A stretch of DNA of 51,216 bases from Bacillota bacterium (GTDB taxonomy: Bacteria; Bacillota; Limnochordia; DTU087; JAAYGB01), in contig JAAYGB010000011.1 of assembly GCA_012727955.1 (NCBI GenBank), forward strand, positions 1-51,216, written 5' to 3'. The stretch's first letter is position 1, and the number at the start of each line of letters is the position of its first letter. Shown here in pieces: positions 1,488 to 12,175 of this stretch. Made by a program: the position numbers and the translations under genes. A model generated the notes under the pieces. The model did no database searches and was not told the DNA's origin. It saw nothing but the letters and a program-made list of their open reading frames with translations.

Positions 1488-1694
1488 GTTTGTGCCCATT
1501 TCTCCTGTCAAAAAGAGCGAAAATTGCAAAAATTGTCAGTCGGAGGTGTATATTGGTCCAAAATTAGCCAACACTAGTCATGGATTCCACTGGAAAATTT
1601 TTGCTGACCTTTAGTCATATCTCAGCAGAGTCCAGATATATATTTACAGATATGTCTTTACAGCCGCGTAGTCTTGGTTATGGGGAGGGTGAAG
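1488..1694 (+). promoter_or_regulatory. Intergenic region upstream of the surface-protein locus
   Basis: This AT-richer stretch between the terminator and the first secreted-protein gene has no convincing gene. A TTGCAA at about 1523 and a TATATT about 19 bases downstream could form a weak promoter, but the spacing is long. A GGGGAGGG Shine-Dalgarno at 1682-1689 points to a GTG start at 1695. Confidence 0.3.
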
Positions 1695-2249
1695 GTGGAG
1701 AGACGGTTTTCCTGGAGGTTGGTCCTGTTTGTCCTTCTGGCTGGTCTTCTTGGCCAGGCAGGAACCGTAGCTGGAGCCAGGACCTTAGATAGCTCTACTG
1801 TTCAAATCATTGTGACGGTGCCGATGTGGGTGACCTTGGATACCGACACCGGGCTGCTACTCATCGAAGACCGAGACTTTGTCCTGACCGTGGATGATAC
1901 GGAATCTGGTACCGAGGGAATTCTTGCCGTCAAGCCCGAGGCCCTGAAGTTAGTTGCTAGAGGCAACGTTGGTTACAGTGTCATGGTTTCCCTTGAGTCC
2001 GATGCCCTGGTCAGTGTTGACGGTGAGTATGAAATACCCGTTTGGGATCTGCGCTGGCGCCGGTCCGAAGGCGATGACGAGTGGTGGCCCCTCTCAACCG
2101 AGGATGAACCGGTGATTGTTCAAATGGAACCGGGAGAGAGCATCATCGACATCGACTTTTTGTTGCTGGCCGCCTGGGATGTACCGGCCACAACTTACAC
2201 CGGAAAGGTGGTCTATACCATCATTGCTCATGAACCAGATCAGCGATAA
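1695..2249 (+). CDS. Secreted fimbrial-subunit-like protein, paralogue 1
   Basis: This exported protein of about 184 residues has no assigned function. It starts with basic residues and a hydrophobic signal segment (VLFVLLAGLLG) ending near AGA. The mature part is predicted beta-rich. It resembles the other small secreted proteins of this locus: an early strand QIIVTVPMWVTLD, a middle segment with alternating polar and hydrophobic residues, and a C-terminal strand introduced by TYTGKVVYTI. Such a last strand after an (A/T)xxYxG turn is typical of spore-coat-U/fimbrial subunit-type domains, but this is pattern recognition, not a database match. GTG 1695 is chosen because it lies 5 bases after GGGGAGGG; ATG 1680 is an alternative. 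It is the first gene of the locus and is followed 22 bases later by the secretin gene. Confidence 0.6.
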   Translation: MERRFSWRLVLFVLLAGLLGQAGTVAGARTLDSSTVQIIVTVPMWVTLDTDTGLLLIEDRDFVLTVDDTESGTEGILAVKPEALKLVARGNVGYSVMVSLESDALVSVDGEYEIPVWDLRWRRSEGDDEWWPLSTEDEPVIVQMEPGESIIDIDFLLLAAWDVPATTYTGKVVYTIIAHEPDQR

Positions 2250-2271
2250 CTATGGAAAGTGGGGGGTTGTT

Positions 2272-3477
2272 GTGAACAGCCAAAGGATTAAGGTGCTGTT
2301 GGTGGTGTTAGTAGGGGTGCTGGTCCTTTGTGGAGGGACGAGCCTAGGCTTGGCCAGTGATGTTGATCCGGAGCCGACGGTTACCATGATGCTCTTTGAG
2401 ACAGACATTCGGGAAGCCTTGAGTGAGATGGCGCTGCAAACTGGGGTCAACATCATTCCTGACCAGAGTGTTGGCGGAGTGATTACCGCGGACCTAGTGG
2501 ATGTGCCCCTTGAGAAGGCCCTGAAGATGATCATTATCGGTGGCGGTTATACCTATCGCAAGATCGATGACTTCTATCTAGTGGGACTACCGGATCCCCG
2601 CAGCACCACCTTCGGTGAGTTGGTGGAAAGCGAAGTCTATGTCCTGCGGCATGTCGATGCGGCCAAGGTACTGGCGGTCCTGCCGAGCTTTCTGAGAACC
2701 TATGTCGCCGGTGGCGATGGTAACCTGTTAACCATCACTGCGCCGCCACTGGAGCTAGAGCGGATTAAGACGCTCCTCCGGCAGCTAGATACACCCAGCA
2801 AGCAGGTGGAGGTTAAGGTGGTGGTCACTGAGGTGTCCACCCAGGCGGCTAGGGAGCTGGGGAATACCTTGCTTCGGTACGTTCCCGACGAGGGTACGGA
2901 GTTTGCCGATATCAATCTTCCACCCCGTTCCTTTGAGTTCGATGGTGTCGGCAACCTGTTGACCATCAATGCCGATGTCTATGGCACTTTGCTTACTCGG
3001 CTGAAGTTATTGCAGGAACAGCGGGAGGCTGAAATCCATGCCGATCCCAAGGTACTGGTGGCCGATGGTGAGACGGCAGCGCTTTTTTCTGGAGAAGAGC
3101 AGATTCTGCTGATTCGTTCGGAAGATTCCGTGACCGACAGGGTGGAGCGGATTGAGGTTGGCGTTTCCCTCGATGTCACCGCGGCAGTGGTTGGCGAGGA
3201 TGAAGTTGTCCTGCGGCTGTCCCCGCAGGTGAGTCACTTTGTAAATCAAGCCAGACCGGATCTGGTGGTGAAACAGAACTCCGTCGAGACCACCATTCGC
3301 CTCAAGAGTGGGCAAACGGCAATGCTGGCGGGATTAACGGTACAGGATGATTCCAGCTACAGCCGCAAGGTTCCGATTCTCGGCGACATTCCCCTGATTC
3401 GCTGGCTGTTTCGAACCGACAGCACGCAAAAGTCTGACAAAGAGTTACTTATGTTCGTGACCCCTGTCATCCAGTGA
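2272..3477 (+). CDS. Secretin (GspD/PilQ family) outer-membrane channel
   Basis: Secretins form multimeric outer-membrane channels for type II secretion, type IV pili or phage export. A signal peptide (about residues 1-28) is followed by an STN/N1-type domain (ALSEMALQTGVNIIPDQSV region), a second ring-building repeat (residues about 120-185, ending LLRQLDTPSKQVEVKV), and a C-terminal secretin domain of about 200 residues. The hallmark end VPILGDIPLIRWLFR followed by ELLMFVTPVI is clear. At 401 residues it is short for a secretin and carries few N-domains. GTG 2272 is preferred because GGGGGG precedes it; the reading frame extends further upstream but overlaps the previous gene. No secretion ATPase, inner-membrane platform or prepilin peptidase lies nearby, so its cargo is unknown. 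The surrounding genes suggest it serves the secreted paralogues of this locus. Its presence implies an outer membrane. Confidence 0.88.
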   Translation: MNSQRIKVLLVVLVGVLVLCGGTSLGLASDVDPEPTVTMMLFETDIREALSEMALQTGVNIIPDQSVGGVITADLVDVPLEKALKMIIIGGGYTYRKIDDFYLVGLPDPRSTTFGELVESEVYVLRHVDAAKVLAVLPSFLRTYVAGGDGNLLTITAPPLELERIKTLLRQLDTPSKQVEVKVVVTEVSTQAARELGNTLLRYVPDEGTEFADINLPPRSFEFDGVGNLLTINADVYGTLLTRLKLLQEQREAEIHADPKVLVADGETAALFSGEEQILLIRSEDSVTDRVERIEVGVSLDVTAAVVGEDEVVLRLSPQVSHFVNQARPDLVVKQNSVETTIRLKSGQTAMLAGLTVQDDSSYSRKVPILGDIPLIRWLFRTDSTQKSDKELLMFVTPVIQ

Positions 3478-3491
3478 AGGTGGGATTCCCC

Positions 3492-4832
3492 GTGCGGAAA
3501 CAACTAATGGCCTGGGCCTTGATGGGAATCTGGCTCCTCCTGTTTTCCAGTGTGGGATGGGCAGCGGAAGACTCCCATACCCAGGCGATGGCTTGGACCC
3601 CGAAGATAGCGCAGCAGTTGGTAGCTTCAGGCTGGGAGTACAACATCGCTTCGGCAGAGGAGCCAATGGTGGTGTACTCCCTGAGCTTTCTCGAGATTAA
3701 CTCCCGATTCAGTCAAGTGCTAGATAGTCTCTTGCAGGTGTCGGAATCGGAATTGGAAGAACCGGCCAGATGGCGATTTTCCGCGGATCCCCAGGTGGTC
3801 GAGTTAGTGAAAAAATACCCCCTTAGTCTCGTCGCCCAGCTGCAAACGGGAGTTGAAGACCAAGCAGCAGAGACGATGATGGAATCCTGGTTAGTGACGG
3901 TGGGTGACAAACCGGTGCGCCTGCGGTTGGAGGACCTCAATTTGCAGCAGGAGCGGGCAGAAGAGCGGGTTCAGTCGCGACTGGAGATTCTCCTCCAGCC
4001 CCAGCAAATCGATTGGCAGCGGGAGCAAGTGTTGACCGCCATTGAACTGAGCTATCTTGGTCAGAGGGGTGAAATTGCCGATACGCAGACGACCATCTGG
4101 ATTGGCCCAGAGCTTGGAGAACCTTTGGCCCTGGTCTCACAGCGGGGGGATGCTTCCCACCAGCAGTGGCGCCGATATTTCGCCATGTATCTGACGGCAA
4201 CGGTCTTGATGCCCGAGCAGCTGCCCAAGGATGCCGCCTTTGTCAGTGTTGGCGACATCAAGGCTCTGCAGCGTCTGCTGGCAGACAAGGGAGAGGTAGA
4301 AGGAACCCCTTCAGAACTGATTCTTTCCCTAGGCATCGCGGGCGAACAATCGGGGGGTCAAGTATCCCTGACCCATTATCTGCCGGGAAACCACTGTCTG
4401 GAGCTGGCGGTGGACTTCTTTGGTGACAACTTCAGTTACCAGGGGGCCTTAGGCTGGTATCTAGCCGAGGGACTGCGCTTAGTCAGCAGCATCGAGGAGA
4501 GTTGGTTCCAGGATCAGGGACCGGTACTGCGGGTGGGACTATCCGATAGGACAACTATCGGTGAGCATCTATCCTTGGGACTGTCCTACCTGCCGCTGCA
4601 GTTGTCCCTAAGGGACAATGAACTGTCTGTCGTGGAGTGTGGTCAATTGCTGGTCAAAGTCCAGGGCGAGGGAGTTGAGGGATGGTATCAGGGTGAGTAT
4701 TTGGCGGGAGAGTTAAATAATCAAATTGGAGTACGGTTGATGCTATCCTCGGCCTTCGGCATCCAAGGGGCTTGGGATGAACCCGCTACATCCAAGGAGC
4801 GAATTTCATTGGGTGTTGTCTATCGGTATTAA
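3492..4832 (+). CDS. Secreted protein with outer-membrane-barrel-like C-terminus
   Basis: I do not recognise this protein of about 446 residues. It has a clear signal peptide (residues 1-25, WALMGIWLLLFSSVGWA). The middle (about 95-230) has alternating strands, and TTIWIGPELGEPLAL followed by a MYLTATVL strand faintly recalls the secretin C-terminal domain of its neighbour. The last 200 residues are rich in short amphipathic strands and the protein ends in ISLGVVYRY, an aromatic-terminated strand like the signature of outer-membrane barrels. GTG 3492 is chosen because AAGGTGGG lies just upstream; a GTG at 3474 overlapping the secretin stop codon is less likely. The close packing with the secretin gene implies one transcript and a joint role at the outer membrane. 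The barrel assignment is inference. Confidence 0.6.
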   Translation: MRKQLMAWALMGIWLLLFSSVGWAAEDSHTQAMAWTPKIAQQLVASGWEYNIASAEEPMVVYSLSFLEINSRFSQVLDSLLQVSESELEEPARWRFSADPQVVELVKKYPLSLVAQLQTGVEDQAAETMMESWLVTVGDKPVRLRLEDLNLQQERAEERVQSRLEILLQPQQIDWQREQVLTAIELSYLGQRGEIADTQTTIWIGPELGEPLALVSQRGDASHQQWRRYFAMYLTATVLMPEQLPKDAAFVSVGDIKALQRLLADKGEVEGTPSELILSLGIAGEQSGGQVSLTHYLPGNHCLELAVDFFGDNFSYQGALGWYLAEGLRLVSSIEESWFQDQGPVLRVGLSDRTTIGEHLSLGLSYLPLQLSLRDNELSVVECGQLLVKVQGEGVEGWYQGEYLAGELNNQIGVRLMLSSAFGIQGAWDEPATSKERISLGVVYRY

Positions 4833-4881
4833 AAGGACTGGAGTTGAAGCAAAGGACTCTTGAGGTAGGATGTGAGCAAAA

Positions 4882-6132
4882 GTGAATGCTTCAATAAGCT
4901 TACCGAACAGCAATGCCGCCCAGGATACCAAGGAAAAGCTTCAGATCTCCTTGTTGGGTAATTTTCGCATGCAGATGGGGGATTACCCCATCTCCGTTGC
5001 CCGTTGGAAGTCCAAGAAGGCCCTCGCCTTACTGAAATACTTGGTTTCAAAGCATGGGGAAAAGGTTCCCCGGGATGTATTGATTGAGTTGCTGTGGCCC
5101 GAGGCCGAGACTGACAAGAGTGCCTTCCACAATCTCCATACAACGATCTATTACCTGCGTCGCAGTTTGAAACCTTACTTAGGCGAGGACCACGATTGCA
5201 TCAAGTACTCCAACGGCCTCTATTGGATTGAGCTGGGGGATCGCATTTGGGTGGATATCGATGAGTTTGTCGGCAGCTACCGCCAGGGCCGAGAATTGAT
5301 GGCCACCGATCCCGCCGCTAGCTGGCACCATTTTCAGCAGGCTCTCCTACTATATCGGGACGATTTTCTTGCGGAGGATCTCTATGAGGATTGGGCGGCT
5401 GCGGCCAGAGAGTACTATCGGGAGCGATACATCGAGACCACTTTGCTGGCTGCCCAGTTACTAGCCGAGTACAAGCAAGACTATACTTCTGCAGTGAGAC
5501 TTTGTCGAGACGCATTAGCTCGGGATCCCTACCGGGAAGAACTCTATCAGGCAATTCTTCGGTACTTGATCCAGGCTGGCAGATACAGTGAAGCTGCGGT
5601 GCAGTATCAACAGTGTGCAAAAATGCTCCATGATGAATTTGGACTCAGTGTCAGTCCGGAAACCAAGGCGATTTACAACCAAATGAAACAGTTGAGTCCG
5701 GTAGAGGAATCGTTGGAGTCGTCGGGGACCGGTTCCTTTGTTTGCGAGCCCCAGATCTTTAATTCCATCGTTGAGCTAGATTTGCGCCGTCAAGGGGAAC
5801 TGACCACATCTCCGGTGGTGATCCAGATGACCAGACCCGCGGGAGCCTTCACCTATGACCAGTCTCAGTTTCTCTTGACCGTGCTCAATACTGTGTTGGG
5901 CCGAGGGGACGTTGTCTGCCAGTGGGAATCTAACCAGATTGCCGTCTGGCTGGAAGACCCTAGAGAAGAGGTGGCTCGATCTGTGGTCCAAAGGATCCAA
6001 CAGCGTCTGAAGGCCAAGCCAAGGATGATGGGTGAGCTCAGCTGGCGGCTGACTCCCGTTACTCAGCTGAAATGGCCCGCGGGAAACCACAGAGCTCCCC
6101 AGCAGAGAGCCTATCGAATTCGGAAAGTCTGA
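4882..6132 (+). CDS. SARP/BTAD-family transcriptional activator
   Basis: This 416-residue cytoplasmic regulator has an N-terminal OmpR-type winged-helix DNA-binding domain (about residues 15-110, including WKSKKALALLKYL and PRDVLIELLWP) followed by a bacterial transcriptional activation domain of TPR-like helices (about 115-275, ending LSVSPETKAIYNQM). The remaining 140 residues have no recognised domain and may be a sensory or oligomerisation region. There is no receiver or NB-ARC domain. SARP regulators are best known from actinobacterial secondary metabolism, but stand-alone BTAD proteins also occur in Firmicutes. It sits between the secretin pair and the secreted paralogues on the same strand, which points to a local pathway-specific activator. 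The GTG start has only a distant AGGTAGGA site, so translation may be weak or the start slightly different. Confidence 0.85.
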   Translation: MNASISLPNSNAAQDTKEKLQISLLGNFRMQMGDYPISVARWKSKKALALLKYLVSKHGEKVPRDVLIELLWPEAETDKSAFHNLHTTIYYLRRSLKPYLGEDHDCIKYSNGLYWIELGDRIWVDIDEFVGSYRQGRELMATDPAASWHHFQQALLLYRDDFLAEDLYEDWAAAAREYYRERYIETTLLAAQLLAEYKQDYTSAVRLCRDALARDPYREELYQAILRYLIQAGRYSEAAVQYQQCAKMLHDEFGLSVSPETKAIYNQMKQLSPVEESLESSGTGSFVCEPQIFNSIVELDLRRQGELTTSPVVIQMTRPAGAFTYDQSQFLLTVLNTVLGRGDVVCQWESNQIAVWLEDPREEVARSVVQRIQQRLKAKPRMMGELSWRLTPVTQLKWPAGNHRAPQQRAYRIRKV

Positions 6133-6149
6133 GTAGAGGAGGTATCGAC

Positions 6150-6701
6150 ATGAAACGAATTACAGCGGGTCTAGTCCTACTGCTGGTTCTGGTCCTCAGC
6201 GGATGGGTCTGGGCCGGAGAAAGAAGCATCAACGTTGATCTGAATATCAAGAGTTTCATGCAAGTGCGAAATCCCGAGGAGATAAGGCTAGAATTGGATT
6301 TCACCAAGGCTACCGATGGCAAGGCTCGGGATGAGGACTATGCCATGATCTGGTGGCAGTCCAATGTCCCGGTGGTGATCACTGAAGTCCGCTCGGAGGG
6401 GTTCAGACAGCTCAAAGGGGATCGGGCAACTAACGATGTCCTGAACAATTGGGTTAACTATCTTTTTGAGACTACTGGATACGATGTCACACTCCCGGCT
6501 GGAAATAGCAAACTCCTAGGCAAAGTCCCCTTGGGGCGATATTCGGGAAACAGCAGCAGAGAGTACGCAGAGTACTCAGAGTGGCACTGGCTGAAGGTCA
6601 CCGCCCAGCTTGAGGCCCTATTAGAGCAAGCCCATTTAGTTCCTGCCGGGGAGTGGCGGGATGTCATCACTGTGACCTTTATCGATGCCGATGGTGCCTA
6701 G
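6150..6701 (+). CDS. Secreted fimbrial-subunit-like protein, paralogue 2
   Basis: A 183-residue exported protein with signal peptide MKRITAGLVLLLVLVLSGWVWA. After cleavage it has the locus-specific pattern: an early strand (INVDLNIKSFMQV), a middle SNVPVVITEVRSEGF that parallels the TNT-x-V-x-S-GF segment of its paralogues, and a C-terminal strand introduced by AGEWRDVITVTF. This last feature matches the AG(E/D)Yxxx(I/V)TVT ending of spore-coat-U-like and fimbrial subunit domains. The ATG follows AGAGGAGG with good spacing, 17 bases after the regulator gene. The next gene, the chaperone-like protein, starts 34 bases downstream, so subunit and putative chaperone are probably co-expressed. Function is inferred from architecture and context only. 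Confidence 0.65.
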   Translation: MKRITAGLVLLLVLVLSGWVWAGERSINVDLNIKSFMQVRNPEEIRLELDFTKATDGKARDEDYAMIWWQSNVPVVITEVRSEGFRQLKGDRATNDVLNNWVNYLFETTGYDVTLPAGNSKLLGKVPLGRYSGNSSREYAEYSEWHWLKVTAQLEALLEQAHLVPAGEWRDVITVTFIDADGA

Positions 6702-6735
6702 GATTACTCTGCAAACCAGAAAGGAAGGGTTGCCG

Positions 6736-8292
6736 ATGCGAACCAAGATCCGGGCTGTCTCGTTACTGCTGGTGACGGCCGCGGTGTTTCTCTGGGCTCA
6801 GACCACTGGGGCCGTTGGGGTGCGGCCCCTAGTGGTTGACATCAGTGCTCGACCCGGGGATACCCAAGAATTTGAACTGACTCTAACTCCCAGCGGTGCC
6901 CCGGAAACCGTTGCTTTGTCCTTGTATCAGCCGGTGCAGCTGATCACCGGCAGTCTCAGCTTTCAAGAACCGGACTTAGATGCTTTTCCTGTAGTTAAAT
7001 GGGTCACCTTGGAGGAGACCAGGGTTACCCTGTATCCGGGGCAGGAAAGGACGGTCAAGGGCAAGATTCAGGTTCCCTTTGACGCCGGTGGTTCCCACAC
7101 TGTGATCGTGATGGTGGAATCGGAGCCGCCGGAGGGGCAAACGGGAATTGTGTTCAAGATCCGGTATGCAGTGCGGGTCAATATTCGGGTGGACCGACCG
7201 GGACTGCGGCAAACTGCTAAGCTAGAGGACTTTGGCTTGGTATCCGGCGAGAACAACGAAGCTTTGGTAAAGGCTACGCTGGCGAATACGTCGGCCTGGG
7301 ACTATCGGGTGTCGGGAGAGGTGACCATCCGTGACTCAGAGCGTCGCCTGGTGGCAAGGCTGCCCTTAAGGAGCATTGCTAATGTAAACTCTAACTCCGA
7401 TTCACTGCGGATGTATCCCGGAAGCAGGGTGGAGTACTTTGCTGAGGTCACCAAGAGATTGTCACCGGGGGATTATACATTACGGCTGTTCATGCGTTAT
7501 GGCGATCATGGTCAAATCATCCAATCCCAAACAGTGACAATTGCCGAAGGGGATTTCAACTTCCCCAGCATTGCGGAAGTGGGAGCCTTCTCAGTGGAGC
7601 CGGCAGAGCTAGAACTGCAACTTCGTCCTGGACAGCAAAAGACGGAGGTTCTGCAGTTAATGAGTGAGGTTTCCGACACCGTCTATGTATTTATGTCTGG
7701 ATCTGAAGTCGAACCGCAGTACATGTACTCTCCCCTGGAGTGGATACAACTGCGAACTCCGTCCCAATTTGAACTCTCTGGTCGAGGGCGAAGTCGGGTG
7801 ATTATGACCATAGCCGCGCCTCGGGACGCAGAATCCGCCAGTTACCATGGGGACATTGTCCTCTCGGCTCTTTCTGAAGATGGGCAGTTGGTAAGTCAGA
7901 GGACGGTACCTATCTGCGTAACGGTAGGCGATGTCCAAACCCCTGATGCTGAGGTAAGAAGCTTGGCTGCGGTACCCTCGGATGGTGAGCTGAGCCTATC
8001 CCTTGACCTGTATAACTGCGGCAACGTTTTTCTCACTCCCCACGCTTCCATTATGCTAACCGATGCCGAGGGACTTTTTGCCGGTAGGGCCATGCTAACT
8101 CTGCCGGAAGGGGTGGACAAGGTTATCCCTCTGAAGAGTCAAGAACTCACGGGCACCATTGAGGATTTGGCTCCTGGAGTCTATACAGCGGGGATTGTCA
8201 TCGAAAGCAACGGGACCGAGGTGTTAAGTACAGAGCTGCCGCTGGAGATAGGGGGTGTTGGTAACCGATCCGATGTTCCGGCTCTGGAGTGA
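6736..8292 (+). CDS. Exported multi-domain Ig-like protein resembling a fimbrial chaperone
   Basis: A 518-residue exported protein with signal peptide at about 1-27 (LLLVTAAVFLWAQTTGA). The mature N-terminus GVRPLVVDISARPGDTQEFEL, then VTLYPGQERTVKGKIQVP and HTVIVMVESEPP, follows the PapD/DUF916-like pattern of an Ig fold that begins with an edge strand, has a proline-glycine turn and ends with an xVxVxV strand. A second similar module starts near residue 275 (FSVEPAELELQLRPGQ) and a third, more diverged, near 425. Together they look like tandem PapD-like or CARDB-like domains. No membrane anchor is visible at the C-terminus, unlike gram-positive DUF916 proteins. Lying between subunit-like genes, it could be a periplasmic assembly chaperone or a structural scaffold. 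ATG 6736 is supported by GGAAGGG six bases upstream. Confidence 0.6.
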   Translation: MRTKIRAVSLLLVTAAVFLWAQTTGAVGVRPLVVDISARPGDTQEFELTLTPSGAPETVALSLYQPVQLITGSLSFQEPDLDAFPVVKWVTLEETRVTLYPGQERTVKGKIQVPFDAGGSHTVIVMVESEPPEGQTGIVFKIRYAVRVNIRVDRPGLRQTAKLEDFGLVSGENNEALVKATLANTSAWDYRVSGEVTIRDSERRLVARLPLRSIANVNSNSDSLRMYPGSRVEYFAEVTKRLSPGDYTLRLFMRYGDHGQIIQSQTVTIAEGDFNFPSIAEVGAFSVEPAELELQLRPGQQKTEVLQLMSEVSDTVYVFMSGSEVEPQYMYSPLEWIQLRTPSQFELSGRGRSRVIMTIAAPRDAESASYHGDIVLSALSEDGQLVSQRTVPICVTVGDVQTPDAEVRSLAAVPSDGELSLSLDLYNCGNVFLTPHASIMLTDAEGLFAGRAMLTLPEGVDKVIPLKSQELTGTIEDLAPGVYTAGIVIESNGTEVLSTELPLEIGGVGNRSDVPALE

Positions 8293-8370
8293 TTTTGGAG
8301 ATTTGTCTTAGTTGCCTTTGACCGAAGGGGTTTATTCTCAAGGTAGTTAACTTCTAAAGGAGGATATCAG

Positions 8371-8907
8371 ATGAGAAAAAGACGCTTCATGATTCTATCC
8401 TTGGCCGTGGTTCTAGTCCTAGGTACAGTGGGCATTGCGGTGGCTGCTAACCTGGACGAAGCGAAAACCAGGGTCCAGTTGATCCTCGAGCCCTATGCCG
8501 AAGTGGCCTTTGGTAGCACTGGTCTTCTCTTGCGTGCCAGTATTCCCGAGGGCGGTAGAGGCTCAACGGGGCTTGTGATTAAGACCAACACTCAACTGGA
8601 TGTGACCATTAGCTCGGGTGGTTTCGGTACAGCAGCCAGCGATAATGACGAGGTGGATCCCTTTGTTAAGTATGAACTAACTCGAAGTGGTCATGACTGG
8701 TCTATCGGATTTGGTGCCGGTGAAGCTAGCAGCTTCGTTACTCCAACGGACTATCATCCCAACGGCAAGTACGGAAATGGACTGTTTGACTATGAGCTGC
8801 AGGCGGAGTTTGACGCAGCCAATGCCGATGAAGACTGGTGGAAATTCACCTCTGACCTCCACTATTTTGACGACATTGTTATCACAGTGACTAAGAAGGC
8901 AGACTAG
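8371..8907 (+). CDS. Secreted fimbrial-subunit-like protein, paralogue 3
   Basis: A 178-residue exported protein (signal peptide to about residue 25, LAVVLVLGTVGIAVAA) with a strong AAAGGAGG site. It shares the family layout: an early strand (VQLILEPYAEVAFG), the middle segment KTNTQLDVTISSGGFG, which fits the TNT-x-V-S-GF pattern best of all the copies, and a final strand DDIVITVTKKAD. The mature part is acidic, glycine-rich and has no cysteine. It is separated from the chaperone-like gene by 78 bases that include TTTGACC at 8317, similar to the motif upstream of later paralogues, so it may also have its own promoter. A strong terminator follows. Confidence 0.62.
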   Translation: MRKRRFMILSLAVVLVLGTVGIAVAANLDEAKTRVQLILEPYAEVAFGSTGLLLRASIPEGGRGSTGLVIKTNTQLDVTISSGGFGTAASDNDEVDPFVKYELTRSGHDWSIGFGAGEASSFVTPTDYHPNGKYGNGLFDYELQAEFDAANADEDWWKFTSDLHYFDDIVITVTKKAD

Positions 8908-8922
8908 GTATACAGACTTGAA

Positions 8923-8951
8923 GGCGGTTGGGTTGATCCAGCCGCCTTTTT
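8923..8951 (+). terminator. Rho-independent terminator after paralogue 3
   Basis: A 9-bp stem (GGCGGTTGG / CCAGCCGCC, one G-T pair) with loop GTTGAT is followed by TTTTT. It ends the first block of the surface-protein locus, just before the intron remnant. Confidence 0.88.
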
Positions 8952-8968
8952 GTGTGTCTGGCATGTCT

Positions 8969-9415
8969 GTTGCGCCGATGGGCTGAAAGAAGCCCTGTCG
9001 CCTAACCAGCGGGAAGACAACCCGTAAGCAGACGTTACCGGTGGCGGTAGGGTCTAGAGGAAGCTGAAGGGGTGGCGTGGAACGAAGCGAAAGCGAACCG
9101 AATATGGCTCATTAGGTGGATAACCTTGCGAAAAATGGGAAAGCCCAAAAGCTGGATAACCTAGTGAGTTTGAACGGTCGGATTCAAGCCAAGGCAGACT
9201 TACCCAGGGAGATACCCGTATCACCCTGGGTAAGTCCGATCAAGCGGAAACGCAAGTGAAAGATGAAGTGGTGCAGGAGGCAGATGAGTCCGTAGTAGTT
9301 ATGAACCCCCAGCCAAAGAAGGCTGGTAACAGACCGGAGGGTAAGACTGCGGGGACAATAACCGAAGCGTTATTGGGCTGACAGGGCCGAAAGGAGCTGT
9401 CGATTGCGAAGGGAC
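8969..9415 (+). mobile_element. Degenerate group II intron (5' domains only)
   Basis: The stretch has the look of the 5' ribozyme part of a bacterial group II intron: a near-consensus 5' end (TTGCGCC for GTGCGCC), the GTCTAGAGGAAGCTG element, AGCGAAAGCGAACC, paired GACTTACCCAGGG / CCCTGGGTAAGTC arms of a domain I stem, and GATGAGTCCGTAGTAG just before a reverse-transcriptase start. Only about 26 codons of the protein remain, and I see no domain V hairpin downstream. It is therefore a 3'-truncated, immobile relic. The 3' limit is approximate. It lies between two subunit-like genes, in the intergenic region after a terminator, a common landing site for such introns. Confidence 0.72.
9301..9381 (+). 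pseudogene. N-terminal stub of group II intron reverse transcriptase
   Basis: A 26-codon reading frame starting at ATG 9301 encodes MNPQPKKAGNRPEGKTAG and ends at TGA. The beginning resembles the first residues of group II intron-encoded proteins, which often read MNxKxKKxxNRPEGK. The reverse transcriptase, maturase and endonuclease domains are all missing. The position, right after the GATGAGTCCGTAGTAG element of domain IV, fits this reading. Confidence 0.5.
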
Positions 9416-9537
9416 AAGGCTAAGGCTGCCCACCTAGCCTTGCTCTACTCGATGTGTGCTCCCAGGCTATTTCCTTCGAGAGAAAGTGAGCGGGGAAACC
9501 AGAACTTGAGTGGTGTTTGATATCTTTCTAATTGGTC

Positions 9538-9716
9538 TTTGAACGGGACTAGCTACTCTATACGTGAAACATCGATCTGAGAGAAGGGCTCGGTTTAACT
9601 CGAAGGAGGGACAGTTCGGTATCGTGAGCCCGTAGTGTGTTAGCCTCGAAAACTGAGGCCGACACAGTGAAAGATGTGTGTAATCTAGTCTCAAGAAGAG
9701 CAAGGAGGAATTTCCA
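9538..9716 (+). promoter_or_regulatory. Leader of paralogue 4 with conserved TTTGAAC-GGGACTAGCTA motif
   Basis: The motif TTTGAACGGGACTAGCTA at 9538 is repeated almost exactly upstream of paralogue 5 (10482) and in diverged form upstream of paralogue 6 (11295). Each is followed by CTAT/ATAT-like bases at a fixed distance, as in a promoter. About 50 bases later the three leaders share purine-rich AAGGRGGGA sequences and GGCTCG/GAGCCGG elements. GGGCTC (about 9588) can pair with GAGCCC (about 9625), so a structured 5' leader of roughly 150 bases is likely. The sigma factor or regulator is unknown. AAGGAGG at 9702-9708 serves the GTG start. Confidence 0.45.
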
Positions 9717-10331
9717 GTGAGAAAGAGTTTAGTCTTAGCGTTGATGTTAATGATCGTCCTCAGCTTGAGCGTTCTAGCTGCTGCAAAGGAGCATGATTAT
9801 CCAACTACACCATTGCTTCCCAACTCCCTTGAATCAGACTGGAGTGTTCGGGAAATCGAAGTAGATATCGATGTGTTCTCCTTTGTCTATGTCGCTGAAT
9901 TCAGCACCGAGCCAATGTTCTTTGACCTAGACTCGCCGGCAGCGATGGGCGAAGCCTATAACATTACCAGACCCGTTGTATTTGGAACCAACACGCCTAT
10001 TAGGATCACCTTGTCAGAGGACTTTACCGGGAAGTTCCCGGCAACCGAGGCTCTGAACACTGCGATTCTACTGCAGAGACCTAGGAATGGAGCCTTTAAT
10101 CCGACTTCATCCTGGACGCGAACCGGCCAGCCTGGTACGAGCTCTGCACGAGCCGTATATACATTCGCCCCCGGAAAGCACGTGGGACAACTCAATGTAG
10201 GTATTGGATGGTACAACACAGGAGCGACGAGTCAGGATGCCGGTAACTGGGATGATCTTCCTTGGTGGGAAGTGTTAGCTGGAGAGTACAAAGGTACGAT
10301 TACAATGACTATTGAGGATATGCGTCAATAG
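9717..10331 (+). CDS. Secreted fimbrial-subunit-like protein, paralogue 4
   Basis: A 204-residue exported protein with a signal peptide (KSLVLALMLMIVLSLSVLAAA). It has the early strand IEVDIDVFSFVYVAEF, the middle GTNTPIRITLSEDF segment and the ending DDLPWWEVLAGEYKGTITMTI. That ending is closely matched by paralogue 5 (DELPWWKVLKGEYEGEITLIV), so these two adjacent genes are recent relatives. The last strand after AGEY is the part expected to complete a neighbouring subunit if these assemble by strand exchange; that is inference. It is the first intact gene downstream of the intron remnant. The gene has its own leader and its own terminator and so forms a separate transcription unit within the locus. 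Confidence 0.62.
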   Translation: MRKSLVLALMLMIVLSLSVLAAAKEHDYPTTPLLPNSLESDWSVREIEVDIDVFSFVYVAEFSTEPMFFDLDSPAAMGEAYNITRPVVFGTNTPIRITLSEDFTGKFPATEALNTAILLQRPRNGAFNPTSSWTRTGQPGTSSARAVYTFAPGKHVGQLNVGIGWYNTGATSQDAGNWDDLPWWEVLAGEYKGTITMTIEDMRQ

Positions 10332-10352
10332 ACCTTCCTATCCAGAAGGCAG

Positions 10353-10390
10353 GGCCTCACTCTATTGCGATGGAGTGAGGCCTTGCGTTG
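10353..10390 (+). terminator. Terminator after paralogue 4
   Basis: A 10-bp stem (GGCCTCACTC / GAGTGAGGCC) around a 10-base loop containing TATTGCGAT is followed by a weak T-containing tail. The stem sequence is nearly the same as that of the terminator after paralogue 5, which supports duplication of a whole leader-gene-terminator unit. Confidence 0.75.
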
Positions 10391-10481
10391 TATTACCCCT
10401 GAGCAGCGCGCAGCGGCAAATAAGGGGAATAAGCCAATAAAATTAACTTTTGACTCCCTTTTGAGTCCTGTTTGACTGAGA

Positions 10482-10653
10482 TTTGACCGGGACTAGCTAT
10501 CATATATTCGGCAAAATCGCGCAGTCCGAATAAAGGGGGAATGGCTCGTCTAGTGCGTTGGACAGATGCTTGAGTCGCGTTGATGCTCATATTATTGGCA
10601 CGGAATTCGGCAGTTTAGAAATGGGCACAAAAAAGCTTGAAAGGAGTACTCAA
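10482..10653 (+). promoter_or_regulatory. Leader of paralogue 5 with conserved TTTGACC-GGGACTAGCTA motif
   Basis: TTTGACCGGGACTAGCTA at 10482 is the second copy of the leader motif of this locus, with ATATT following at the spacing seen in the first copy. An AAAGGGGGAATGGCTCG stretch at about 10535 parallels AAGGGGGGATTAGCCG in the next leader. A further TTTGACT lies ten bases upstream and could be the true -35 element. AAAGGAG precedes ATG 10654. Confidence 0.45.
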
Positions 10654-11187
10654 ATGAAAAAGAGTTTGGTTATGGTATTGATGTTGTTGCTGGCTCTCGG
10701 GACAACCGCTACGGCCGCCACCCGTGATACCGCTAAGGTAAAGCTTGCCGTAGACGTTCCTGGCCATGTCGAGATTGCAGGTTTGACGAGCGATAGCGTG
10801 TTATCCGTCTCCATGAAGGAGCCAGGGGATCAAAGTACAACGAGAATGGCTTCTCTTCGGTTCGAGGTATTGACAAATACCCGTGTGAAATTCGGTTTTG
10901 CCAATGACGATAAGTTCCCTCGGTTGACTCTAAGGGATGAGGAAGGCAATGTACTTGCAGGATTCAAAGATCCTGGTAATCCGGAGTGGAGCAATCCCCT
11001 AAAATCCGATATTCAAATCAGAGGCGGGGAAGTGTCAGGTACATACAAGTATGTAGATGCCGGGCGACATTACGAATGGCTGGATTTCAGAGTCCACTGG
11101 GATAGCAGGGATGAACTTCCCTGGTGGAAGGTTCTTAAAGGGGAGTATGAAGGCGAAATCACGCTGATAGTTCAAGAGGTAGATTAG
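10654..11187 (+). CDS. Secreted fimbrial-subunit-like protein, paralogue 5
   Basis: A 177-residue exported protein (signal peptide MKKSLVMVLMLLLALGTTATA). Family features are the early strand KVKLAVDVPGHVEIAG, the middle EVLTNTRVKFGFANDDKF and the terminal strand KGEYEGEITLIVQEVD. The tryptophan pair in DELPWWKVL is shared with paralogue 4. The mature protein is highly charged and lacks cysteine. ATG 10654 is chosen because of the preceding AAAGGAG and because the signal peptide starts exactly there; an open frame further upstream is not coding-like. It is a monocistronic unit with its own leader and terminator. Confidence 0.62.
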   Translation: MKKSLVMVLMLLLALGTTATAATRDTAKVKLAVDVPGHVEIAGLTSDSVLSVSMKEPGDQSTTRMASLRFEVLTNTRVKFGFANDDKFPRLTLRDEEGNVLAGFKDPGNPEWSNPLKSDIQIRGGEVSGTYKYVDAGRHYEWLDFRVHWDSRDELPWWKVLKGEYEGEITLIVQEVD

Positions 11188-11223
11188 TCCTTCCCCGTGA
11201 AGGGTTCATAGACAAGGTGTTTT

Positions 11224-11260
11224 GGCCTCACTCTATGCGATGAGTGAGGCTTTTCTTTTG
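11224..11260 (+). terminator. Terminator after paralogue 5
   Basis: The stem GCCTCACTC / GAGTGAGGC with loop TATGCGAT is followed by TTTTCTTTT. It is almost a copy of the terminator after paralogue 4, differing mainly by a shorter loop. Confidence 0.88.
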
Positions 11261-11294
11261 CCTTTGACTAAGCTCTAAGATCTATCTGATTGGA

Positions 11295-11674
11295 TTCTGA
11301 ATGGGACAGAGTATGCTATGTCTGGTGAGTGAAAAGAGCCGGTTTACAAATAGACAATGGTTCGGTCTTGAAGGGGGGATTAGCCGATCTAGTAATGCGT
11401 TCTGCAGTTGCGTTGTGTTGGCTGTCAAAATACTCTGACGTCATGCTAGAAAACACGAAGTCAGAGTAGCATATGACTAGGAGATCAGCATAGGATCTAG
11501 AGTATCTGTGGTTTGGGAAATGTCGTAAGCCACGTTGTTGAGTCCAGTATTTACCTGGACCTTCGTAGTCCCGTCGATGTCGTTTCCTCTGGTAGTAAAA
11601 ACCTAAACGGGCACCTATGGGAGTGGCGTTGAGCTATACGGGATCGCTTCACAAATCAATGAGGAGGAAATGAA
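11295..11674 (+). promoter_or_regulatory. Long leader of paralogue 6
   Basis: This 380-base stretch has no credible gene. It begins with TTCTGAATGGGAC, the diverged third copy of the leader motif, then GAGCCGGTTTA and AAGGGGGGATTAGCCG, which parallel the other two leaders. Further down, ACTCTGAC (about 11430) and GTCAGAGT (about 11460) form an 8-bp inverted repeat around a 20-base loop. The leader is more than twice as long as its two relatives, so it may carry an extra regulatory structure. GAGGAGGA precedes ATG 11675. Confidence 0.4.
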
Positions 11675-12175
11675 ATGAAAAAAGTGTTGTTTCTCACCCT
11701 AGTATTGGTAGTTGCCTTGGGAGCTGTTGCCATGGCCAAGTCAGCCAGTGATAGCTTTGATGTTAAGCTTAATATTCTACACTATGTTGAATTAGTGCTT
11801 CCCGACAGCTTGAATCTTGAGGATATCAACTTTGCGGACGGCTATGGCAGGACCCTGTCCACGACAATGAAGCTCTACACCAATGATGATGTCTATGTAC
11901 GTTTAGAGTCTGCAGGATTTGTCGATGCTGAGGGCAACGAGAGCCCTACGCTTAATCAGTGGGTTCAATACAGCTGGACTCCTGGTACCGGCCATCCCTT
12001 CTTCCTCGGAGCCGGCAAGAGCGTAGGAGGTTGGGGACCCTACGGATACGACTTCACTGGCAGTGTTATTGACATGCCCCTCAAGGTGATTTTCAAGGCG
12101 CCCAAAGCCGATTGGTTTGCTGCACGTGCCGGTGACTACAGCGACGTGATCACGGTGACGGTTTTCGCGAAGTAG
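11675..12175 (+). CDS. Secreted fimbrial-subunit-like protein, paralogue 6
   Basis: A 166-residue exported protein with signal peptide MKKVLFLTLVLVVALGAVAMA. It gives the clearest view of the family: the early strand DSFDVKLNILHYVELVLPDSL, the middle YTNDDVYVRLESAGF, and the C-terminal ARAGDYSDVITVTVFAK. The ending closely follows the AGxYxDxxTVTV strand known from spore-coat-U and related fimbrial subunits. No sortase motif, lipobox or membrane anchor is present, so attachment would have to be non-covalent or by polymerisation. It is the last member of the array and has a strong terminator. Function is inferred. Confidence 0.65.
   Translation: MKKVLFLTLVLVVALGAVAMAKSASDSFDVKLNILHYVELVLPDSLNLEDINFADGYGRTLSTTMKLYTNDDVYVRLESAGFVDAEGNESPTLNQWVQYSWTPGTGHPFFLGAGKSVGGWGPYGYDFTGSVIDMPLKVIFKAPKADWFAARAGDYSDVITVTVFAK

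Follow-up and report, generated by a model that had tools for sequence, protein, structure and literature searches.

Secretins are, to our knowledge, the gates of ATP-powered machines, and we know of chaperone–usher fibres only together with ushers. In Gram-positive bacteria, WxLIP proteins, which consist of two immunoglobulin (Ig)-like domains (DUF916 and DUF3324), bind WxL proteins that are attached to peptidoglycan; published AlphaFold2 models show a β-hairpin strand of WxLIP inserted into the WxL domain beside its N-terminus, and DUF916 is reported to be the less stable domain, likely needing WxL for its stability (PMC10599100). Here we analyse a locus of Bacillota bacterium GCA_012727955.1 in which a secretin stands among genes that recall both of these systems. 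It occupies positions 1680–12175 of contig JAAYGB010000011.1, in a window (the whole stretch of DNA analysed) of 51,216 nucleotides. An initial annotation had listed a short secretin, a signal-peptide protein ending like an outer-membrane barrel, a SARP/BTAD activator, an exported protein of several Ig-like segments and six small proteins, likewise exported and laid out like fimbrial subunits, and had noted the lack of an usher, sortase, pilus ATPase, inner-membrane platform or prepilin peptidase. Our searches bear out this list of parts and support its reading as a surface fibre or coat system, so far undescribed, that is linked to a secretin and assisted by a chaperone, with amendments to the chaperone, the outer-membrane component and the extent of the operon. 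All parts can be placed in known superfamilies or likened to them; the combination is apparently undescribed. No account of such a system was found in the open-access literature (subscription papers and preprints lay outside the search), and where an eLife 2016 survey of two-membrane Firmicutes touches on secretins, it deals with the PilQ protein of type IV pili (PMC5007114).

The gene set is a conserved system across many families of deep-branching two-membrane Firmicutes. A profile of the multi-Ig protein matched 53 of 81 relatives. Neighbourhoods were fetched and searched with profiles built in this analysis, and a secretin was counted when it lay within 6 kb of the Ig gene on the same strand. 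Across 65 Ig loci, a secretin was present in 61, a match to the small subunits in 56, a secretin-derived barrel protein that we call BAR in 48, a larger two-domain protein in 30 and an orthologue of the BTAD regulator in 22. The four loci without one are each cut short by a contig edge; every locus with more than 6 kb on both flanks has a secretin (27/27). In the wider phylum, the Ig gene is flanked by a secretin gene and by subunit-like genes in 20 of 20 further loci. With two loci that lie on the same contig counted once, the combined non-redundant figure is 80 of 84, the exceptions being at contig ends; a lack of such co-occurrence in related genomes had been named as refuting the initial annotation, which has thus withstood this check. 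The close relatives, found by scanning contigs with 12 close Ig sequences, belong to Limnochordia, DTU087 or unclassified Bacillota metagenome-assembled genomes. The cultivated halophile Halanaerobacter jeridensis, type strain DSM 23230, also has the set (NZ_JAFBDQ010000005.1), as an operon in the order SEC-BAR-SUB-SUB-IG-SUB in the abbreviations given below, and so do the three genomes of the class that consist of a single contig. Writing SUB for a subunit, SEC for the secretin and IG for the multi-Ig protein, there are two main layouts, SUB-SEC-BAR-(BTAD)-large SUB-SUB-IG-SUB and SUB-SUB-IG-SEC-BAR. In the loci farthest from these, the order is large SUB-like, SUB-like, IG, SEC and then an unclassified protein, mostly of 230–310 residues (for example L084:6654–7364). 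The host genome itself holds a second copy on another contig (C53), with a secretin, BAR, multi-Ig protein, subunit, 305-residue larger subunit-like protein and BTAD gene. Identity between the two copies is 36% for the secretin, 32% for the Ig protein, 32% for the barrel protein and 29% for the BTAD protein, so the second copy is not a recent duplication.

The six small proteins of the locus each have a signal peptide and a β-rich body, and they align as one family. Searches of single proteins against Pfam, NCBIfam and PHROG returned nothing useful, and the sequence profile of the family against the PDB ranked CsuE (E 0.0035) and Caf1 (0.037) at the top, weakly. An AlphaFold2 model of subunit 6, built with 17 relatives (predicted local distance difference test, pLDDT, 80.9; predicted template modelling score, pTM, 0.66), is a pilin-like β-sandwich, the subunit-like fold that had been anticipated. 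Its best Foldseek matches in the PDB are CfaB, the CFA/I pilin (E 4e-5), then Caf1, PapK, FimF, PapE, the PapG pilin domain and CsuE; donor-strand archaeal filaments (the 0406 filament and bundling pili) are matched as well. By its best matches, the modelled protein thus appears closest to chaperone–usher pilins and other donor-strand filaments. Subunit 1 belongs to a subgroup, c8, whose members lie directly upstream of the secretin in many relatives. The larger conserved protein, of about 290 residues, has two domains, the C-terminal one being the subunit domain (c8 against c4, hhalign E 2e-13), and in this it recalls two-domain tip adhesins. It is absent from the window locus and present in most close relatives, as in the C53 copy. 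Solitary subunit genes also occur outside both secretin loci, on contigs C51, C6, C23, C37 and C13 of the host, one of the genes having an internal stop; these scattered genes are possibly a reservoir of variant subunits.

The 518-residue multi-Ig protein had been likened to PapD- and DUF916-type chaperones, and the second comparison proved the closer one. Taken alone, it matches WxLIP_HBD weakly (E 0.003), under the Pfam gathering scores, and WxLIP_PGBD is matched by 9 of 37 Ig-protein relatives (best 2.2e-5). The family profile matches the solved EfmWxLIP1 of E. faecium (9i25, 9i1y) with an E of 1.5e-6. These profile matches indicate that the protein is distantly related to WxLIP (DUF916/DUF3324), beyond which it continues C-terminally with further Ig-like segments. 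PapD families were absent from the Pfam and PDB profile searches with this protein, and a two-domain chaperone of the PapD kind was not recognised in it.

The secretin of the locus matches Secretin (1e-37), Secretin_N (2e-9) and STN (7e-5) in Pfam. It likely starts at the GTG at 2272, as the resulting 401 residues agree with the 389–402 of its relatives. It scores under the curated cut-offs of all named NCBIfam secretins (for PilQ, 149 bits against a cut-off of 284). In a tree, the Ig-linked secretins, including that of the window, form one group (support 93/86), outside which fall the other H. jeridensis secretins and the Tad secretin of the comparison set. The next gene encodes BAR, which has no Pfam match on its own. 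Comparison of the profiles of 28 BAR proteins and 35 secretins with hhalign gave a probability of 95 and an E of 3e-8 over 183 columns of the secretin core. Three BAR relatives keep the full N0–N1 region (STN 1.3e-8), which the window protein has lost. In the AlphaFold2 model, residues 281–452 form 12 regular strands (pLDDT about 90), agreeing with the barrel-like ending seen at the outset, and Foldseek aligns this barrel with KdgM (TMt 0.76, root-mean-square deviation 3.4) and NanC (0.63). BAR joins a paralogue of the secretin to a barrel of the KdgM/NanC kind. It shares the fold of these 12-stranded porins and is unlike them in that the barrel is fused behind a secretin-like domain and tied to a secretin operon. 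Because the secretin-like half is poorly modelled, the kinship with secretins rests on the profile comparison.

The host genome gave no match to the usher family (PF00577), in a search whose control was positive in E. coli. It encodes one Omp85 protein, from which we conclude that the cell has an outer membrane. Like chaperone–usher pili, whether classical, alternative (CFA/I type) or archaic (Csu/Caf1 type), the system combines an Ig-like partner predicted to be periplasmic with small exported β-sandwich, pilin-like subunits and a larger protein of two domains, the C-terminal one a subunit domain, and its gene set has no cytoplasmic ATPase. It differs from them in having a secretin and BAR, with no usher in locus or genome, and in an Ig protein that is WxLIP-like and longer than the two-domain PapD.

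The reading that we favour, with moderate confidence, is that the genes make up a pathway of export and assembly at the outer membrane, by which small β-sandwich subunits would form a surface fibre or coat independently of an ATPase. By analogy with chaperone–usher pili, we infer both the export and the polymerisation of the subunits. These would leave the cytoplasm via Sec and, if incomplete or unstable as proposed, would be bound in the periplasm by the WxLIP-like multi-Ig protein and stabilised by strand complementation. They would then be passed to an outer-membrane complex of the secretin and its BAR paralogue, emerge through it and join via N-terminal donor strands; folding energy would drive export, as in chaperone–usher pili, with no cytoplasmic ATPase. 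The larger two-domain protein may serve as a tip or adhesin, and the BTAD protein would switch on expression. The initial annotation had put the secretin in the place of the usher; the outer-membrane part is probably the secretin and BAR as a pair rather than the secretin alone. A narrower proposal is that this pair does the usher's work for fibres linked by donor strands, with a WxLIP-like chaperone folding them; we regard it as possible and somewhat short of probable.

Several points weigh against the export pathway. Neither an interaction of the parts nor export nor a fibre has yet been seen. In Gram-positives, WxLIP proteins are linked to the cell surface and are not periplasmic chaperones, and the Ig protein exceeds them in length by its extra Ig-like segments. 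The TM-scores of subunit 6 are moderate (0.42–0.50), with large root-mean-square deviations, and an alternating hydrophobic N-terminal segment, found in 47% of subunits against 14% of control N-termini, is a modest enrichment. Beyond its barrel, BAR is modelled poorly (overall pLDDT 70.6, pTM 0.44), and distant relatives lack a recognisable BAR, with the unclassified protein of 230–310 residues in its place. Finally, we know of no secretin that acts without a motor except phage pIV, which itself needs an assembly partner.

The foremost competing explanation is a scaffold that remains within the envelope. In such a WxL-like system the small proteins would sit on or under the outer membrane, either on peptidoglycan or as a scaffold in the periplasm; the Ig protein would be their partner, and the secretin and barrel pair would anchor or tether rather than export. 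The relationship of the Ig protein to WxLIP, a binder of peptidoglycan-bound WxL proteins in Gram-positives (PMC10599100), speaks for it. So does the outline of the clusters, since in both a homologous Ig protein lies beside small and larger exported proteins. However, the WxL domain (PF13731) is absent from the host genome and from 48 subunits at E values up to 1, and the idea that the small proteins are themselves WxL domains was not supported. The modelled subunit resembles pilins, and unless something crosses the outer membrane it is hard to see why each complete locus should have a secretin of its own. The system also differs from the Gram-positive WxL clusters in its two-membrane host, its link to a secretin and the extra C-terminal Ig-like segments of the Ig protein. 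We consider the scaffold unlikely, though it is the most serious alternative to an export pathway.

Type II secretion-like export, in which the secretin would release folded small proteins as soluble products and draw its power from a motor outside the locus, for instance the ATPase of the Tad system, seems to us improbable. Secretins normally pair with T2SSE-type ATPases, and the secretin core with N0 and N1 is shared with type IV pili, Tad pili and type II secretion. The host genome does hold one true T2SSE ATPase (PF00437), but this belongs to a complete, separate Tad locus with its own secretin; the window secretin and that of the C53 copy are the only others in the genome. A second, weak ATPase match, on contig C65, we take, from our own reading of its sequence, to be SpoIIIAA, which would suggest sporulation genes in this two-membrane host. 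With the T2SSE ATPase placed beside the Tad secretin and the other match SpoIIIAA-like, the locus secretins are left without a motor of their own. Clustering of the genes in the neighbourhoods gave no recurrent extra family fitting an ATPase, platform or pseudopilin, and Pfam recognised no prepilin-like gene among the locus proteins. An A24 prepilin peptidase gene adjoins BAR in the C53 copy (L004:9583–10107, − strand), which might favour a type II-like machine; it is not conserved beside the other loci in the same clustering and was set aside as a partner. A dedicated Ig chaperone is, moreover, not a feature of type II secretion. Sortase had no Pfam match among the ten locus proteins, sortases elsewhere in the genome not having been searched for. 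Decay of a type IV pilus or type II locus, leaving a partnerless secretin among unrelated genes, would account for the missing platform genes and is scarcely credible, being refuted by co-conservation: the frames are intact, the same neighbours recur at those 80 loci in many families, and the window secretin clusters with Ig-linked secretins apart from the others compared.

To return to the export pathway, strand-complemented subunits are likely, by analogy, a principle common to this system and to TapA–TasA and archaeal donor-strand filaments, two of which appeared among the Foldseek matches. For these filaments we know of no secretin or Ig chaperone. We rate the system as a new kind by elimination, because defining features of chaperone–usher systems (the usher), WxL clusters (the WxL domain) and type II or type IV systems (ATPase and platform) were looked for and are lacking.

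The ten genes (Table 1) lie together on one strand, as had been described for a single locus, but an intron fragment separates the three distal subunit genes from the rest. A group II intron D1–D4 piece (Rfam) lies at 9035–9202 (+) between subunit genes 3 and 4, in an insert region (8960–9660) without a reverse transcriptase open reading frame; with this fragment intervening, subunit genes 4–6 are unlikely to form one unbroken operon with the others. They have long leaders and share a promoter-like element, TTTGAMCGGGACTAGCTA, at about 9538 and 10475, with a looser copy at 11290, 150–370 bases upstream of each gene. Neither the elements nor the leaders matched Rfam; the element is possibly a regulator site or part of a leader RNA.

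Table 1 Genes of the locus in their order along the contig, with positions in the window
Gene product	Position	Strand	Basis or remark
Small exported subunit 1	1680..2249	+	Pilin-like family, subgroup c8; start ATG 1680 or GTG 1695
Short secretin, N0/STN + N1 + secretin core, ~401 residues	2272..3477	+	Pfam; alignment of 35 relatives; tree
BAR, secretin-derived, C-terminal 12-stranded outer-membrane barrel, 452 residues	3474..4832	+	hhalign, AlphaFold2, Foldseek
SARP/BTAD-type activator with degenerate GGDEF-like C-terminal domain	4882..6132	+	Pfam
Small exported subunit 2	6150..6701	+	Signal peptide, family alignment
Exported multi-Ig protein, WxLIP-like putative chaperone, 518 residues	6736..8292	+	Profile matches to EfmWxLIP1
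Small exported subunit 3	8371..8907	+	Signal peptide, family alignment
Small exported subunit 4	9717..10331	+	Subgroup c6
Small exported subunit 5	10654..11187	+	Subgroup c6
Small exported subunit 6	11675..12175	+	Subgroup c6; AlphaFold2 model a β-sandwich like chaperone–usher pilins

The regulator matches BTAD (7e-20) and Trans_reg_C (6e-8) in Pfam. Both it and its counterpart in the C53 copy (L004:17002–18159) end in a GGDEF-like domain that lacks the GGDEF motif, and these regulators may therefore sense a ligand or partner. Judged by sequence, the next genes downstream of the locus encode a regulator of the ArsR type, a protein resembling arsenate reductases and a permease; they appear unrelated to the system.

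A second conserved pair was observed in Halanaerobiia (L155:518–5332; also L165, L166, L170–L174 and L179). It comprises an exported protein of about 1016 residues, with SdrD_B and carboxypeptidase-regulatory-like domains, and an Ig protein of 270 residues and two domains, which is a relative of the chaperone (E about 1e-15). At L155 the pair is accompanied by a 286-residue subunit-like protein and lies directly beside the secretin locus. The 1016-residue protein looked usher-like by eye; it had no usher match in Pfam or PDB profile searches, and this assignment was dropped.

A conserved operon in which a secretin is joined by a paralogue that carries a barrel and by pilin-like subunits would constitute a new type of secretion and fibre assembly. 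If the secretin and BAR do take the usher's place, theirs would be the first known secretin route in a bacterial envelope without a motor ATPase of its own, and it would tie the WxL systems of Firmicutes with one membrane to the assembly of fibres in relatives that have two. The hosts (Limnochordia, Halanaerobiales) belong to the deep-branching two-membrane lineages that have been used to argue for a Firmicutes ancestor with an outer membrane, and the system suggests a possible origin of the Gram-positive WxL/WxLIP clusters. Transmission electron microscopy of Limnochordia isolates has shown filamentous structures on the envelope, and in Carboxydochorda subterranea L945 an S-layer was seen and no S-layer protein was found in the genome (PMC11456536). 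The present system is a candidate source of both the Limnochordia envelope filaments and the L945 S-layer.

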